A DNA stretch of 45,551 nucleotides. It comes from Candidatus Gastranaerophilales bacterium. Its GTDB lineage: Bacteria > Cyanobacteriota > Vampirovibrionia > Gastranaerophilales > Gastranaerophilaceae. The translations under genes were made by a program, and so were the position numbers. Location of the stretch: contig CALVEO010000010.1 in the NCBI GenBank assembly GCA_944326615.1, forward strand, positions 1 through 45,551, written 5' to 3'. Numbering within the stretch: the first letter of the stretch is position 1; every line of letters begins with the position of its first letter. Below the pieces are notes generated by a model. The model searched no databases. It was not told where the DNA came from and was given only the letters and a program-made list of their open reading frames with translations. Below, in pieces: positions 5,343-30,575 of the stretch.

Positions 5343-6133
5343 TTATTTACATCTTATTTTTTTATCCCAGCCTAATCCATCACAATGCAGATAATCCATA
5401 TTCCCATTGTAAATTACCCAGGCTGTACAGCCATAACCATTGTATTCACCTGATGCTCCATGCACGCAGCTGGTATCAAACGATCGTGATGTATCTCCTT
5501 GATAACCGTATGGTTTTATCCCATTTTTTGTAATTATGAAAAAGAAAATATCATGTCCAACAGCATTCGGTCCTTTATCACCGTTTAAATCTACTGCTAA
5601 ATCTCCGCATTTATTATCCTGAGAGCAAGATGTATTTGCATTTGTTTGCAGCCATGTTGATCTGATTACCGTACCATCATTGAACCACCAGAAACTTGTC
5701 AATGTATTGCTTAAAACAGATTTTTTATCCATTCCATATATTGTACGTGTCCATATTTCTGGCGTGATGACATTCCGATAAATTCGCCGTACCTTGCCCA
5801 AAAAGTATTAACACTTTTTGTTTTTTTGTCAATTTCTTCTTGAGTTGAAGAATCATCTTCTACAAAGGAATTTGACAGTCCCCATGAGTCTATGGTTCCA
5901 TATTCTTCTTCAACAAGTCTTCCGGCATTTTCCATAACAGCATAAAACTTTTTAAGTTTTGTTGTGTATTCTTTTTCTCTGTATTTTTGGATTAGTGATG
6001 GCATAGTCATCGCGGCGACTATACCGATTATCCCAAGTGTTATCAATACTTCTGCGAGGGTAAATCCAGTTTGGTGTTTATCACTTTTTGTTGTTTGATT
6101 TAGTGCTTTTTGATAATGGATACTCTTTTTCAT
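5343..6133 (-). pseudogene. Type IV prepilin-like protein, frameshifted
   Basis: The 5' half (6133-5711) encodes a 23-residue basic leader ending HQTG, then FTLAEVLITLGIIGIVAAMT, the prepilin peptidase site and hydrophobic helix of type IV/type II pseudopilins. The 3' half (to 5343) continues in another frame and ends DYLHCDGLGWDKKIRCK. That is almost the same tail as the prepilin at 20776-22091 (DYLHCDDLSWDGKTRCK), so the two pieces belong to one protein of about 260 residues. Both frames are open between 5801 and 5711, so the shift lies there, perhaps near the GMSS/NVITP junction. Either a real inactivating indel or a sequence error would explain it. The shared C-terminal signature DLNGDKGPN is present. 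Confidence 0.8.
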
Positions 6134-19653: not shown

Positions 19654-20703
19654 ATGATTATAATAATGGAGCGTAATGCTACTAAGGTTCAGATACAAAG
19701 AGTTATTGATTTTTTGAAAGATAACGGTTTTGATATCCGATTTAATCAAGGGCAGATACACAGTGTTATAGATGCTATCGGCGATAAAACAACTGTTACT
19801 CCGGGCAGGGTTTCGGCATTTGACGGTGTTAAAGAGGTTAAGATAATCAGAGAACCTTTTAGACTAGCATCTCGGGACAGAAAGCCTGATGATACTGTTA
19901 TTGAATTTGCAAACGGTGTTAAAATAGGCGGGAACAACAAACCTGTGTCAATGGTCGGTCCATGTTCTGTTGAAGAGGATTATGACGGGCTTATAAAAGT
20001 TGCGCTTGCTGCAAAAGAAATGGGATGTGAATTTTTAAGAGGCGGTGCGTTTAAGCCAAGAACTTCTCCGTATGATTTTCAAGGTTACGGCGAAAAAGCT
20101 TTGAAATATTTGAAAAGAGCAAGTAAAGAAACAGGACTTTTGACTGTTTCCGAGGTTATGGATGCGTCGGATCTTGATATGATGTGTGAATACATTGATG
20201 TTTTGCAGATTGGTGCCCGAAACGTACAGAATTTTAAATTACTTCATGCTGTAGGCAGATGCAGAAAACCGGTAATTTTAAAACGTGGTCTTGCAAGTAC
20301 AATAAGGGAATTTCTTCTTGCGGCCGAGCATATTATGTACAACGGCAATCCAAATGTTATTCTTTGTGAGCGCGGTATAAGAAGTTTTGACAGTGCTTTT
20401 ACCCGTAATGTAATGGATATAGCTTCAATTCCTGTTATTAAAAAATATTCACATCTTCCAATAATTGTTGACCCCAGCCATGGTACGGGGCAGAGATATT
20501 TGATTGAACCAATGGCAAAGGCAGGGCTTGTTGTCGGCGCTGACGGTATTATGATAGAAGTTCATCATGACCCTGAAAATGCTCTGTCAGATGGCAAACA
20601 GAGTCTCCCTATACCGATGTTTAAAGAAGTTATGGGCAGGATTAACCAATTTAATAACAGATTACATTATGAAAAGACCTGTTTATCGGCAAATGTAAAT
20701 TAG
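19654..20703 (+). CDS. aroF: 3-deoxy-7-phosphoheptulonate synthase, type I-beta
   Basis: 349 residues. An N-terminal ferredoxin-like/ACT-type regulatory domain (1-75) is joined to the TIM-barrel synthase. Barrel motifs include MVGPCSVEEDYDGLI near 107, FLRGGAFKPRTSPYDFQGYG near 129, QIGARNVQNFKLL near 191, PVILKRGLAST near 211 and IIVDPSHGTGQR near 272. The enzyme joins phosphoenolpyruvate and erythrose-4-phosphate, the first step of aromatic biosynthesis. The N-terminal domain suggests feedback by an aromatic product. A start at MERNATK (codon 5) is also possible. A strong terminator follows. The symbol could equally be aroG. Confidence 0.93.
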   Translation: MIIIMERNATKVQIQRVIDFLKDNGFDIRFNQGQIHSVIDAIGDKTTVTPGRVSAFDGVKEVKIIREPFRLASRDRKPDDTVIEFANGVKIGGNNKPVSMVGPCSVEEDYDGLIKVALAAKEMGCEFLRGGAFKPRTSPYDFQGYGEKALKYLKRASKETGLLTVSEVMDASDLDMMCEYIDVLQIGARNVQNFKLLHAVGRCRKPVILKRGLASTIREFLLAAEHIMYNGNPNVILCERGIRSFDSAFTRNVMDIASIPVIKKYSHLPIIVDPSHGTGQRYLIEPMAKAGLVVGADGIMIEVHHDPENALSDGKQSLPIPMFKEVMGRINQFNNRLHYEKTCLSANVN

Positions 20704-20709
20704 ATAAAG

Positions 20710-20738
20710 TTGAAAAGTGCTAAATTGTATGCTATAAT
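20710..20738 (+). promoter_or_regulatory. Strong promoter of the prepilin gene at 20776
   Basis: TTGAAA (20710-20715), a 17-nt spacer and a perfect TATAAT (20733-20738). The -10 box overlaps the left arm and loop of the aroF terminator hairpin. Confidence 0.75.
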
Positions 20739-20763
20739 GAGTATGTAGCATACAATTTTTTTT
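20723..20763 (+). terminator. aroF terminator overlapping the prepilin promoter
   Basis: AATTGTATGCTA (20723-20734) and TAGCATACAATT (20746-20757) form a perfect 12-bp stem with an 11-nt loop, followed by eight T to 20763. Transcripts from aroF would end here, while transcripts starting at the embedded promoter contain only the right arm. Confidence 0.85.
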
Positions 20764-20775
20764 AAAGGAGAGTTT

Positions 20776-22091
20776 ATGAGAAGATTATTAAGAAATGTTA
20801 ATCGGGGGGGGGGCACTCCCAGCTAGCAGAGAACAAGAAGTCGGGGAATCAAGTCGTTTACATTAATGTCATTGCGCATTTATTGCGCAATCTGGAATTT
20901 GTCCTAAAAAGATCGCGCAACAAGTGCGCGATGACAGGTCTTAATATTCAATCCAGCCTGCCTTCCTGCCATCTGAACTTCTGTTCTTCTGATAATGACC
21001 CTCTCCCCAGCCCTCCCCCGAGGGAGGGAGCATGTTCCCGTAAATCTTATCTAAGATCTAACAATTGTCATTGCGAGCGACAGAATGGAGCGTCGCAATC
21101 TCATAATATTTATATAAATAATGAGATTACTACGTCGAATGCTTCGCATTCTCCTCGTAATGACATAGAAAATTTATGCAACACCCAAGTAGTGGATGGA
21201 ACGGCTACGTTCCCCCTACCCCAGGGGAGGGAAGCAGAAAAATCCACTTCACGTTTCACTCTTCACCCTTCACTTAAAAAACGCGCCGCGTTTACTCTCG
21301 CTGAAGGTGCTACGCACGTAGCCACCTCCGACAATATTCGTCGCGCTGCGTTCACTCTGGCTGAGGTTTTGATTACCTTAGGAATTATTGGGGTTGTCGC
21401 TGCTATGACGATGCCTTCTTTAATTCAAAAGCAAAAAGAAAAAGAATATGCCGCTAAACTTAAAAAATTCAACAGTATGATGAGTCAGGCTGTTATTATG
21501 GCTATCAATGAAGAAGGACCCATTGAAAATTGGGGGTTGATGCAATTCTCATCAAGTGCTGGCATGAGTGATGAAGAAATAGCGGATGCGAATGAATCAA
21601 GAAACAAGTTTTTTGAAATTTTATCTAAATATCTCAAAGTAGTAGAATACTGCCCGTATAATTCTACCTGTGAGGAATGGGATAGGCATTCGCTTGATGG
21701 AACGGCCTATGACAGTTTTCCTAAACGTATGGTGTTGGCTGATGGTACTATGATTAACGGAGTAACTATTCTTTCGCCGCAATGTAATAAAAATCTCGGA
21801 ACTTCTACTTCTCTGCAGAATGTTTGCGGAGAATTCTTTGTCGACGTTAACGGAAAAAAAGGCCCCAATGCAACCGGTAAAGATGTATTTATGTTCTATT
21901 ACACAAAATACGGGGTTACACCTGTTGGAACTAAAGAAGAAACAAATGCTACATTTGAGACTAAATGTAACCGAAAAATTGCAGATAAGCTAAACGGTTA
22001 TGGATGTGCTGCATGGGTAATTTATAACGAAAATATGGATTATCTCCACTGTGATGATTTATCCTGGGATGGGAAAACCAGATGTAAATAA
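20776..22091 (+). CDS. Type IV prepilin-like protein with G10 tract at its start (out of frame as read)
   Basis: The ATG at 20776 has AAAGGAG 7 nt upstream and a strong promoter. As written it reads MRRLLRNVNRGGGTPS and stops at TAG (20827). A run of 10 G (20804-20813) lies in codons 10-13; with 8 or 11 G the frame passes without a stop into the pilin at 21351-22091. The leader of about 190 codons is repeat-derived. The pilin part has AAFTLAEVLITLGIIGVVAA, a helix KEKEYAAKLKKFNSMMSQA, the Cys-rich C-terminal domain DVNGKKGPNATGKDVFM, and the tail DYLHCDDLSWDGKTRCK. Type IV pilins and pseudopilins form extracellular fibres. The tract suggests phase variation, or an assembly error. Confidence 0.75.
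20804..20813 (+). repeat. G10 homopolymer, candidate phase-variation tract
   Basis: Ten consecutive G in AT-rich DNA, 28 nt after the prepilin ATG. The reading frame leading into the pilin is open from 20802 onward, so one inserted G (11) or two lost (8) would fuse it to the ATG. Confidence 0.8.
20860..21345. repeat. Mosaic of interspersed repeats inside the prepilin leader
   Basis: In order: an inverted GCGCA/TGCGC unit (20867-20935); CCCTCTCCCCAGCCCTCCCC with GAGGGAGGGAGC (21000-21031); TCATTGCGAGCGACAGAATG (21069-21100) with its partner CGTAATGACA (21155-21164); GGAACGGCTACGTTCC (21197-21212) with CCCCAGGGGAGGG; a CACTTCACGTTTCACTCTTC tandem (21245-21275); and the palindrome GGTGCTACGCACGTAGCCACC split as GGTGCTACGC and ACGTAGCCACC (21306-21326). 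Despite this origin the pilin frame has no stop throughout. Confidence 0.7.
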
Positions 22092-24039: not shown

Positions 24040-24768
24040 TTATTGTGAAGCTTCAGGAGATACGCCGCCATCTGCAGGCTGTGGAGAAGGAACTGAACCG
24101 CCGCCTTCTGCATTTTCGGCCTGCTGTGCTGCCGCCTGGGCAGCCGCTTCTATAGCTGCACGTTCTTTAGCCGCAGTAGCTTCATCCTTTTGTGCGTACA
24201 ATTTTACTGAAACATTTATAAGTAAAATTCTTTTATTTTTTTCATATGGTGTTATTTCAAAATTTTCAATATTTAAGAAATGCTCATGCTTATACAATTC
24301 TCTTAAGAAGTTTGCAAAACTGTCATAACTTGCAATCATTTCTGCCGTAAATCTGCATACATGATATTTATATGGAATAAATTTAACAAAATTATCATCT
24401 TTAGGGTCATAATCATATTTAACAGAGCGAACCTTAATCTTGTTTGTTCGCATTAACTGTAGAATTTCACCGAATTCATCAGAAATAGCGGCTTCTGTAT
24501 CCAAACCTTCAGTTATAGGTTTGAAAAAGATATTTGCAACACTTTCGCTTTCTGCTTCCCTGCGTTCAGCATCAGCTTTCAATTCCGTAAGTTTTCTTTC
24601 AGCGTCAGCCAATGAAGCAGACTGAACCTTTTGATCTTCCTGAATTTGGATAATTCTCTGTACTTCAGGAACAATTTTAAAGAACATTGCAACAACTGAA
24701 ATAAAAACAAGTACAAATATTCCTACAGCTATTTTAAATTTTTTCAAATATATATTAAATTTTTCCAC
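24040..24768 (-). CDS. pilO: PilO-like type IV pilus inner-membrane protein
   Basis: 242 residues. A short cytoplasmic N-terminus, one membrane segment (about 13-32, IAVGIFVLVFISVVAMFF) and a periplasmic coiled coil (40-75, QEDQKVQSASLADAERKLTE) precede a ferredoxin-like fold (about 100-190), the PilO/GspM plan. The tail is Ala/Gln/Pro-rich. It lies 39 nt downstream of the PilM-PilN fusion. PilO with PilN forms the alignment complex that links the cytoplasmic ring to the outer-membrane pore. The family call rests on architecture and neighbour rather than a strong motif. Confidence 0.75.
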   Translation of the reverse strand: MEKFNIYLKKFKIAVGIFVLVFISVVAMFFKIVPEVQRIIQIQEDQKVQSASLADAERKLTELKADAERREAESESVANIFFKPITEGLDTEAAISDEFGEILQLMRTNKIKVRSVKYDYDPKDDNFVKFIPYKYHVCRFTAEMIASYDSFANFLRELYKHEHFLNIENFEITPYEKNKRILLINVSVKLYAQKDEATAAKERAAIEAAAQAAAQQAENAEGGGSVPSPQPADGGVSPEASQ

Positions 24769-24807
24769 TTTTATTCTCCTAGCAGTCTTACTTCCTGAAA
24801 ATTAGAC

Positions 24808-26481
24808 CTATTTTTTGTCTTTTTTATCATCACCCTTACCCTCGGCAGCCTGTTTAGCTTTTTCAGCCAGAGCTTTTTCAAGTCTGTTAAGCGCCGCTGT
24901 ACTCATATTTGTAATTTCAAATTCATAAGCAGTCGGCTGATTTGGGTCAATTGTAACTGCCTCATCTACAGAATCACTTTTCATTTCGAGTTTATGAAGT
25001 CTAAGCTGGGTGCTTATCAATGAATCTTTCATATTCTTAAAGAATACATAAATATCTTCAACATTATCAGATTCACCTTTTATGTCGAAATTACCGTCAT
25101 CGGCTGCTGTAAAATATGTAAGGAATACTTTTTTAGGCACAGCTTCTCCAAGAGCAGAATATCCCATAAGTTTTGAACGATTATTTGTCATTACTTTTTT
25201 AATTTCTGCATTTACATCAAAGTCATTTGCCCTGTTTTGTTCATCCTGAATACGTTTAATTTCAGCATTAGTCTGCTCAAGTTTCGCTTTCGTGTCATCA
25301 AGCTGTGTTTGTTTTTGCTGGGCAAACATTGGAATTGCTATAAAAGCAGCCAGAACAGGTGCAATAACAATTACAGCAATCAAAAGCGCAACATTCCTTG
25401 CAGCATTAGGAGAAATATCAAATTCATTGGCTCCTAAAACAACATGGACAGGTTCATTTGGATCTTCTTTAACTCCGCCTTCACCTGTACTTGATACCAT
25501 AAAGTTAAATTTAACAGGCATAGCAATATTGCTGCCAACTGCAATACCAATAGCTTCCAGTGAAATTTTATGGGCGGTATCTTCCAAAATTTCCAAACTT
25601 ACAGGCAAAACGTCCTGCTTTTTAAAACTGTTATTTTCAAGATAGTTAACAATGCTATCAGTCTGCAGTCTTTTTGCAAGAAGTTCCGCGCTGACCATAT
25701 CAGTTTCCGAAATTATATATAAATAATTTGCAGGATAACTCATTAATGTTATTTGGGCTGATGCGTTAATTGCATTGTAAATTTCATCACCTTCAAAAGA
25801 TTTAATTGCCAGCGGTTCATCATAATAATCAACAATTGTTTTACCGACCAGAGAACAAATAGAATATCCGCTCGGTGTAATAAGCATCAAATTCCAGGAA
25901 ACATTATCCTTCATCTGTTCTTCTGCCAAGCCTGAAAATGCCAGAGCTTTTAATATAGATGTCAATGACATTTCTACACCGGCAAGAGTAATACCTAACT
26001 CTGTCAATGCATTTTTAATATCTTCTATAACATTTTTTTGAACAGCAGAATAAAAAAGTTTTCTTGAATCGCCTGCCTGCATATTGTTAGAATCACACCA
26101 GCTTACGACAGGTTCATATCTTTTAAAAATATATGACTGTTCAACTTCAGAAGTCAGAGCTTCTTGTATAGCGTCATCGCCAAGAAGTAATGGAAGTTCT
26201 TTGCTTCCTAATAGTACCATAGGCAAATTCAGCACTACATTACTTTTAAGGTTAATTTTTAATTCTTCAAACAGCTCGTTTACGGCGTTTTTAAAAGCTT
26301 CAATATCGGTAATCTCTCTTAAAGATTCGTTATATTCAAGAGGACGATATGCATAATTTTTTACGGTACGGCTCTGTATATCCAGCTGGATAAGTTCAAG
26401 GCCTACACCCGGAGTTACTGAAAGATATACTGTATCTTTGCTGCCTACACCTAATTGTGATAAAATATTTTCTAAACTCAT
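24808..26481 (-). CDS. Fused PilM-PilN type IV pilus assembly protein
   Basis: 557 residues. Residues 1-330 have the actin-like PilM/GspL-cytoplasmic fold (TVYLSVTPGVGLELIQLDIQ, VVLNLPMVLLGSKELPLLLG). A membrane segment at about 362-386 (NVALLIAVIVIAPVLAAFIA) is followed by a coiled coil (387-420, QKQTQLDDTKAKLEQTNAEI) and a PilN-like periplasmic domain (430-535). The last 25 residues are Lys/Glu/Ala-rich. PilM and PilN are usually separate; here, as in GspL, they form one chain. With pilO it makes a two-gene minus-strand unit that could assemble the pilins encoded in this window. Confidence 0.75.
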   Translation of the reverse strand: MSLENILSQLGVGSKDTVYLSVTPGVGLELIQLDIQSRTVKNYAYRPLEYNESLREITDIEAFKNAVNELFEELKINLKSNVVLNLPMVLLGSKELPLLLGDDAIQEALTSEVEQSYIFKRYEPVVSWCDSNNMQAGDSRKLFYSAVQKNVIEDIKNALTELGITLAGVEMSLTSILKALAFSGLAEEQMKDNVSWNLMLITPSGYSICSLVGKTIVDYYDEPLAIKSFEGDEIYNAINASAQITLMSYPANYLYIISETDMVSAELLAKRLQTDSIVNYLENNSFKKQDVLPVSLEILEDTAHKISLEAIGIAVGSNIAMPVKFNFMVSSTGEGGVKEDPNEPVHVVLGANEFDISPNAARNVALLIAVIVIAPVLAAFIAIPMFAQQKQTQLDDTKAKLEQTNAEIKRIQDEQNRANDFDVNAEIKKVMTNNRSKLMGYSALGEAVPKKVFLTYFTAADDGNFDIKGESDNVEDIYVFFKNMKDSLISTQLRLHKLEMKSDSVDEAVTIDPNQPTAYEFEITNMSTAALNRLEKALAEKAKQAAEGKGDDKKDKK

Positions 26482-29342: not shown

Positions 29343-30510
29343 TTAAGGCAGACACTCCCAGTATGTCTTAGAATCATCATCAGGGCAAATATTTTGTACG
29401 GCATAAGGAGTACACCCGAATCCGTTTGATAATTTTGTGCTTGTCCTGCTGCATTCTTTTGACCTTTCATAATAAACTCCATCATCAGGAGAAAAAGAAT
29501 TTCCCTCATCATCTGTCTTATGAGCCAGTTCACTTGCAACGGCATCAAGTCTTGGTGAATAAGTCGATTTTATGACAAATATAAAAATGTCTTGTCCGTA
29601 TGCGTTAGGACCTTTTTTAGGGCCGTTTGTATCAATCGTAAAAAACCAGCCGCCCGAATTTTTCATTCCGCCTACGGCACTACCGTCTGCCAGTATATGT
29701 GTAATATAACTTTGCGATTGGGTCGGTGTCGCGCCTTTAATAGGCTTTCTGGTATATCCTTTTATCTCAATGCTGGTTGGATAATAATCACGTTCTACAA
29801 TTTGAATAGTATTTAATTTGTTGAAAATACTGACATAAAATTCATTATTATCAAAAGCAATAAAATTCGATGCCATAGATGGCACACCGTTTTCAGCAAT
29901 TGCTAAATTAACAGCGTTATACAGATTTGCGTAACTCTTTTTAAAAGCTGTTTCAAGAACCTTTTGCCGATGTTTTGCAATCAATGAAGGCATAGTAAGT
30001 GCCGCCACCACACCTATAATTCCTAATGTAATCAAGACCTCCGCTAATGTAAACGCGCAGCGTTTACAAGGTGAATAAGAGAATAAGTGAATAGGTGAAT
30101 AAGTTCGTTTCGAGGAATTAGTGTCATGCTGAACTTGTTTCAGCATCTTATAATTACTTACTTCCTCTCCTGTGGGAGAGGGTTGGGGTGAGGGCTGATT
30201 ATTATATATAATTTGATTGTAGTTACTTATTCCTTCTCCCCTATGCGGCAGCGTAGCCGCTGCACCCGATACCTGGGTCTTGTATGAACTTGTTATATCA
30301 CAACAAGAAGGTAGACTTCGACAATTAGAAAATAAGCCTTTTAACGTAAATAGCCTACCCTCATACCTTCTTATCTTCCTACCTTCCAAATAAAATCTTG
30401 CTGCTTTAGTGCGGTAGTACCTTTGTATCTTTTTAAATTCTACAAAATCGCAAACCTTTGTTATCCCTGACTTTGCGGGGGGGGGCGATTCTCAGCTCTT
30501 CTCTATTCAT
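29343..30510 (-). CDS. Type IV prepilin-like protein with C9 tract at its start (out of frame as read)
   Basis: The ATG at 30510 has AGGAGG about 8 nt upstream. It reads MNREELRIA into nine C (30485-30477) and, as written, stops at TAA after 26 codons. With 8 or 11 C it runs without a stop into the frame of the pilin. That frame is open from the tract to the stop at 29343. The leader of about 150 codons contains repeats (for example PSPQPSPTGEE). The pilin part has RCAFTLAEVLITLGIIGVVA, LAKHRQ-type basic residues, the signature IDTNGPKKGPNAYGQDIF and a Cys-containing tail. A TTG at 30389 is the first in-frame start if the tract is not read through, but has no good ribosome-binding site. Confidence 0.75.
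30071..30386. repeat. Mosaic of interspersed repeats inside the second prepilin leader
   Basis: From the pilin end: a GTGAATAAGAGAATAAGTGA tandem (30071-30112); ATGCTGAA ... TTCAGCAT around ACTTGT... (30126-30146); CTCTCCTGTGGGAGAGGGTT with GGGGTGAGGGCTG (30173-30199); GCAGCGTAGCCGCTGC (30246-30261); and the AAGCC...TAGCCTACCCTC ... CTTCTTATCTTCC unit (30330-30386) also present in the ribosomal operon. Confidence 0.7.
30477..30485 (-). repeat. G9/C9 homopolymer, candidate phase-variation tract
   Basis: Nine G on the plus strand, that is nine C on the coding strand, 25 nt after the prepilin ATG at 30510. Loss of one C or gain of two would restore the frame to the pilin. Confidence 0.8.
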
Positions 30511-30546: not shown

Positions 30547-30575
30547 ATTATTTACTATATTACACTTTTTGTCAA
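30547..30575 (-). promoter_or_regulatory. Strong promoter of the prepilin gene at 30510
   Basis: On the minus strand, a perfect TTGACA (30575-30570), a 17-nt spacer and AATAAT (30552-30547). It begins just after the stop codon of the 30580-31410 gene. Confidence 0.75.

Follow-up and report, generated by a model that had tools for sequence, protein, structure and literature searches.

Guanine tracts as putative frame switches with an OFF default in a family of prepilin-like genes of Gastranaerophilales

In Neisseria, a G tract lies near the start of the pilus-related gene pilC, and slippage in this tract shifts the reading frame. Only two genes, encoding pilus-tip adhesins, are concerned in that case, whereas the genes described here form a large family of prepilins. 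The pilE/pilS system of Neisseria relies on many variant pilin copies of which few are expressed; its gene conversion is initiated by a G4 element, and no start sites are present in the silent copies. The present genes resemble pilE/pilS in having a G-rich DNA element near pilin genes and in showing signs of recombination between copies, but each of them carries a promoter and a start of its own, with the tract placed inside the coding frame. The organism considered in this work belongs to the Gastranaerophilales, common but uncultured non-photosynthetic relatives of cyanobacteria that live in animal guts, and to our knowledge their interactions with host and phage are unknown. The nearest published case is that of Bifidobacterium breve UCC2003 (bbr_0113 and bbr_1889), in which a sortase-dependent pilin gene is split by a G tract of about 11 nt (PMC9187656). 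This tract separates an ORF carrying the secretion signal from the pilin ORF, and the two are out of frame in the reference sequence; the second ORF has no active start, and it was shown experimentally that replication slippage restores the frame (PMC9187656). The likeness extends to the lifestyle of a gut commensal and to the order signal, tract, pilin. However, B. breve has Gram-positive sortase pili encoded at two loci instead of about 45 type IV prepilin-like genes, and the mosaic leaders, the sharp tract length of 10, the C-G10-CA context and the G run oriented along the replication strand are features found here and not in B. breve. Finally, Campylobacter jejuni NCTC11168 has 29 polyG/polyC loci (PMC4965091). 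The present genome resembles C. jejuni in its dozens of G tracts, their lengths of around 8-11, the surface-glycan genes among the targets, the predicted frame switching and a length-dependent equilibrium. Unlike in C. jejuni, the targets are mostly prepilins with few glycan genes, the length is much tighter, and the usual length leaves most prepilins OFF; in addition, this genome has MutS/MutL genes. Our literature search, which covered few subscription journals, returned no report of phase variation in Gastranaerophilales and none of phase-variable prepilins of this kind; within this limit, we found no paper against the claim, made in a preliminary description of this DNA, that such a switch is undescribed for these pilin-like proteins.

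The window that we analysed is the whole of contig C10 (45,551 bp), from a genome of 1.96 Mb in 78 contigs that is 98% complete; its features are listed in Table 1. The preliminary description had proposed a phase-variable prepilin gene with a TTGAAA-17-TATAAT promoter, an AAAGGAG site, an ATG at 20776 and a G10 tract at 20804-20813, and we found each of these elements where it had placed them. The spacing of 28 nt that it gave is correct when counted from the A of the ATG, but the gap between the codon and the tract is itself 25 nt. Its reading of the frames was also borne out: as written, the frame ends at a TAG at codon 17 (20824-20826), the pilin frame has no stop from 20802 until 22089-22091, and 11 or 8 G would connect the ATG to the pilin. 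Two features of the window had not been mentioned. One is the inverted repeat at 20722-20758, a strong terminator-like hairpin that overlaps the −10 box TATAAT of the tract gene and that, by inference, is probably the terminator of the upstream gene, which ends at 20703. The other is a second tract prepilin on the minus strand (29343-30510), whose C9 tract (30477-30485) lies 25 nt after the A of its ATG (30510-30508) and which also requires a length of 8 or 11 to be ON. A third, tract-less prepilin (5343-6133, minus strand) is split over two ORFs (5711-6133 and 5343-5801), the C-terminal half being in a different frame; this resembles a simple frameshift, and the junction contains no long homopolymer. 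No Rfam match was found in the window.

Table 1. Coordinates of the prepilin-associated features of the window.
Feature	Position	Strand	Remark
Sigma-70-type promoter TTGAAA-17-TATAAT of the tract prepilin gene	20710-20738	+	−35 box 20710-20715, −10 box 20733-20738
Perfect 13-bp inverted repeat with 11-nt loop, followed by T8	20722-20758	+	Fold z-score −3.6
Ribosome binding site AAAGGAG	20764-20770	+	
OFF-state frame, ATG 20776-20778 to TAG 20824-20826 (codon 17), MRRLLRNVNRGGGTPS*	20776-20826	+	
G10 tract, context C-G10-CA	20804-20813	+	Pilin in frame at length 8 or 11
Prepilin leader without stop in the pilin frame	20814-21350	+	Mosaic modules; AAFTLAE stretch duplicated
Mature pilin-like protein FTLAEVLITLGIIG..., 246 aa, with stop at 22089-22091	21351-22091	+	PF07963 N_methyl
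PilO-like (below cut-off) and PilN-domain genes, type IV pilus assembly proteins	24040-26481	−	
Pilin body of the second tract gene	29343-30053	−	
Leader of the second tract gene	30054-30476	−	Open
C9 tract of the second tract prepilin (G run on + strand)	30477-30485	−	OFF as written
Promoter TTGACA-17-AATAAT of the second tract prepilin	30547-30575	−	

We then considered the tract at the scale of the genome. The whole-genome list of G/C runs of at least 8 nt comprises 74 tracts (64 of length 10, five of 9 and five of 11); from base composition, about 0.08 runs of at least 10 G/C are predicted for this genome. The G10 at 20804-20813 is real and far beyond chance. The full homopolymer spectrum was determined only in 364 kb around tracts and prepilins, where runs of 6, 7 and 8 nt number 8, 1 and 0, respectively, indicating that the runs of length 10 form a class of their own rather than a distribution tail. 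On the G strand, their context is usually C-G10-CA or C-G10-CG. The genome encodes 110 prepilin-like proteins, and 48 of the 74 tracts precede a prepilin motif at a distance of 27 to 1346 nt, against 8% of the genome (P ~2e-33). In about 45 prepilin genes, the distance between the A of the ATG and the tract is mostly 21-38 nt; the prepilins without a tract have mostly short, ordinary leaders. The view of the G10 switch as a single locus must therefore be abandoned, as about 45 genes form the system.

The relation between the tract and the reading frame is the same in all intact tract prepilins. Leaving aside one tract unlinked to its pilin (C46), one gene whose start is lost at a contig end (C55) and two genes with broken leaders, the 48 tract prepilins come down to 44 intact genes, 26 in G-form and 18 in C-form. 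Every one of the 44 is in frame only at a length of 2 mod 3, that is 8 or 11; as assembled, 42 are OFF (40 at length 10 and two at 9) and only two, C11:15450 and C15:7004, are ON at G11. The phase of the start-to-tract and tract-to-pilin distances varies among genes, and only the sum of both is constant. Promoter-like sites matching at least 10 of 12 consensus bases precede 39 of 46 tract genes, with 4.2 expected from shuffles; they tend towards TTGAAA-17-TATAAT in G-form genes and TTGACA-17-AATAAT in C-form genes, so that the two forms look like two separate start modules with the same length, context and register. Given these two dissimilar 5' modules, their different promoters and the several phase classes, the register does not come from one frozen ancestor, and we rejected a single inherited ancestral module as the whole reason for it. 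Between tract and motif, the leaders of 47 genes (6876 codons) contain 10 stops in the pilin frame, all of them confined to the two broken genes, whereas the other two frames have 593 and 423 (1016); 45 leaders are free of pilin-frame stops. This near-absence of stops shows that the leader is kept translatable, and from the ATG the pilin frame can be reached only through the tract. Translation from an internal start was rejected, since an SD-like start between tract and pilin occurs in just 12 of 47 genes, mostly as TTG or GTG, and none preceded by an SD-like or other ribosome binding site was found in that interval of the window gene. The proposal that the tract switches the frame remains the best explanation of the common register (44/44), of the 45 stop-free leaders and of lengths 9, 10 and 11 that toggle the predicted state, although switching itself is inferred. 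We assign a probability of about 0.75 to slipped-strand phase variation with an OFF default, the window gene being one of about 45 prepilin members.

Related genomes were examined for the same arrangement. Each of the 18 other species of the genus that were searched first has G tracts, most of them of length 10, and among 71 tract prepilins sampled mainly from the genus, 58 would be in frame at 11, nine at 10 and four at 9 or 12. When the search was widened to the order, 83 of 192 genomes and 20 of 40 genera had the tract motif, mainly this genus and some others of the family. A group of other Gastranaerophilales genomes (G030-G035) has a usual length of 11, with the pilin in frame at 10 or 13; the two groups therefore have different offsets but the same OFF default. 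In the loci read in this second group (L337-L366), only G-form prepilin tracts were seen. Three orthologues of the window gene differ in state: one has C10 and is OFF (L257), one has C11 and is ON (L259), and one has no tract and an ordinary leader (L258, MKKIRNAFTLAE). Two paralogues (L237 and L238) have tracts of 9 and 10 behind a 5' flank identical at 60 of 60 positions. It must be stressed that these length differences are between species or paralogues, not strains; within the genome of the window, a change of one unit, as between G10 and G11, toggles between a predicted intact frame and an early stop; no same-species copies that could reveal length variation were found in IMG/VR.

The tract is not restricted to prepilins. 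A C-G10-CA tract in frame at 10 occurs in a GT2 glycosyltransferase (C53:4637) and a PMT_2 glycosyltransferase (C59:2179), and tracts in frame at 10 are also found in a large membrane protein (C4:49429) and an unknown protein (C53:10281). A YadA_head/N_methyl protein (C15:35093) has its G10 tract in frame as well; this unusual adhesin-like pilin joins a prepilin N-terminus to YadA head repeats. Surface targets such as these glycosyltransferases and the adhesin-like protein are the usual targets of phase variation. At the same length of 10, then, prepilins are mostly OFF and these five genes ON, which speaks both against a systematic undercall and against obligatory slippage at the RNA level, and argues that a process on DNA sets the length while the register is selected in each gene separately. 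An undercall, the alternative raised in the preliminary description, would mean that the true length is 11, the ON length, and that sequencing or assembly has lost one base. Such an error has a precedent in the pilus G tract of the B. breve reference genome (PMC9187656), and if systematic it would produce a uniform −1 offset. However, the assembly's own glycosyltransferase genes have intact frames at 10, which a length of 11 would destroy, the second group of genomes reports a usual length of 11 with the opposite offset, length 10 is usual in many independent assemblies of the genus, and lengths 9 and 11 are called too. We consider a miscalled homopolymer extremely unlikely, and its systematic form was rejected on the first two of these points.

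The orientation of the tracts provides a further argument. Of 128 pairs of adjacent tracts from three genomes, 124 share the strand of the G run, with genes pointing either way, and at third positions the GC skew of this strand is positive in 36 of 40 regions. In one genome (G007) all 14 regions agree, and the skew sign flips together with the tracts. By the usual convention, we infer that the G-run strand is the leading strand. The G run therefore follows the replication strand, gene direction setting only whether the mRNA carries a G or a C run, and this again points to a process acting on DNA. As a side observation, G-run polarity could mark origin and terminus in draft genomes of the group, for example on contigs C1-C3 of G007. 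These data bear on the possibility that the DNA is fixed at G10/C10 and that reframing occurs on RNA, through mRNA slippage adding one base or through −1 ribosomal frameshifting. The uniform length of 10 and the uniform −1 register in the genus would fit such a mechanism, and a homopolymer of 10 contains a slippery heptamer in every phase. Nevertheless, the mRNA run is G in some genes and C in others according to the replication strand, efficient slippage would be harmful in the glycosyltransferases that are in frame at 10, the correction required in the second group is the opposite one (its default of 11 is ON at 10 or 13), and the bacterial RNA polymerase slippage described in one paper (PMC6260861) is on A/T runs. 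Reframing on RNA thus appears unlikely, and fixed −1 frameshifting everywhere is disfavoured by the glycosyltransferases and by the opposite offset of the other group. Another variant keeps the process on DNA: the tract may be a defined element whose run is held at 10, and sometimes altered, by a dedicated replication-coupled process. The fixed length, the flanks C and CA/CG on the G strand, the independent emergence of the tract in dissimilar genes and the strict confinement of the G run to the leading strand led us to consider this variant, which we regard as a doubtful possibility only; if true, the OFF state of this set of pilins would be a programmed default.

Variation is also apparent downstream of the tract. 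Pieces of the region 20764-21343 recur in 10 to 60 other loci with identities of about 80-96%, and the boundaries of the leader modules are conserved near 20953, 21149, 21214 and 21341, all modules being free of stops in the pilin frame. From 21341 to 22090, the pilin body (C10:21351) is 97% identical in DNA to that of C37:2411 in the same genome, which has a different leader and an unrelated 5' module in the opposite orientation (C-form versus G-form). The junction lies at the AFTLAE codons, suggesting from these sequences a recombination at the motif. Mosaic leaders and near-identical bodies behind other 5' modules imply that recombination between copies may add variation. They would also suit a silent reservoir or decaying genes, in which the tract does not switch and variation arises through recombination of bodies and leaders. 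Against this, decay would leave stops, yet the pilin frame is stop-free in 45 of 47 leaders, the promoter, RBS and ATG are all retained, and some copies and orthologues stand at the ON length. We therefore judge a mere reservoir very unlikely.

Several observations bear on the assignment of the window product to the type IV prepilin-like proteins. The prepilin N-terminal motif is met (AAFTLAEVLITLGIIG), with A/G before FTLxE and a hydrophobic helix (PF07963, 22.9 bits for a cut-off of 21.2). The predicted structure of the mature protein consists of a helix (3-55) and strands, with a mean pLDDT of 92. Several of the best chains in the structure alignment are type IV pilins, but the matches are weak (Z at most 4.8), and a Foldseek structure search with the window pilin returned no match at E 0.001; the sequence profile reaches known pilins via the helix. 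A prepilin peptidase is encoded in the genome (PF06750 at C16:30829-31080, E 7e-37). The leader of 170-180 aa is unusually long, and its cleavage, like pilus assembly, is only inferred. As removal by the prepilin peptidase is expected, the length and sequence of the leader would not matter.

Slipped-strand phase variation would then operate as follows. Each of the about 45 prepilin genes would be read from its own promoter, RBS and ATG into C-G10-CA or its complement, the orientation of which would be set by the direction of the gene relative to replication. At length 10 the ribosome would halt a few codons past the tract and no pilin would be made. A replication slip to 11 (or 8) would link the start to the stop-free leader and the pilin body, another slip would return the gene to OFF, and the leader would presumably be cut off by the prepilin peptidase. 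With few pilins in frame at any moment, surface pili may vary from cell to cell. The tract, the register, the open leader, the promoters, the length differences between genes and species, the polarity and the prepilin peptidase can be read from the sequence, while a reversible change of length in one population, a protein made at 11 and its arrival in a pilus remain inferences. No read- or strain-level data are available, and the consensus of a MAG hides minority lengths. Moreover, almost every gene of the genus needs +1, without a mixture of +1 and −1, and simple slippage does not require such uniformity, which counts against our best explanation. Loss of mismatch repair was rejected as the cause of slippage, since MutS and MutL genes or domains are present in this genome and in nearly all relatives; slippage rates may for this reason be below those of Campylobacter. 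That tracts approach a mutational equilibrium length is an accepted idea, and the published Campylobacter rates give a broad equilibrium with a peak at 9 (43%) and 24% at 10 (PMC8224891). The length peak here is sharper, and this, like the mismatch repair genes, weighs against our explanation; MAG consensus calling would sharpen the peak.

The link between the G run and the replication strand makes these genomes a clean natural data set for relating the direction of replication to homopolymer mutation. For the bacterium itself, about 45 separately switchable pilins, OFF by default, would constitute an unusually large contingency system.
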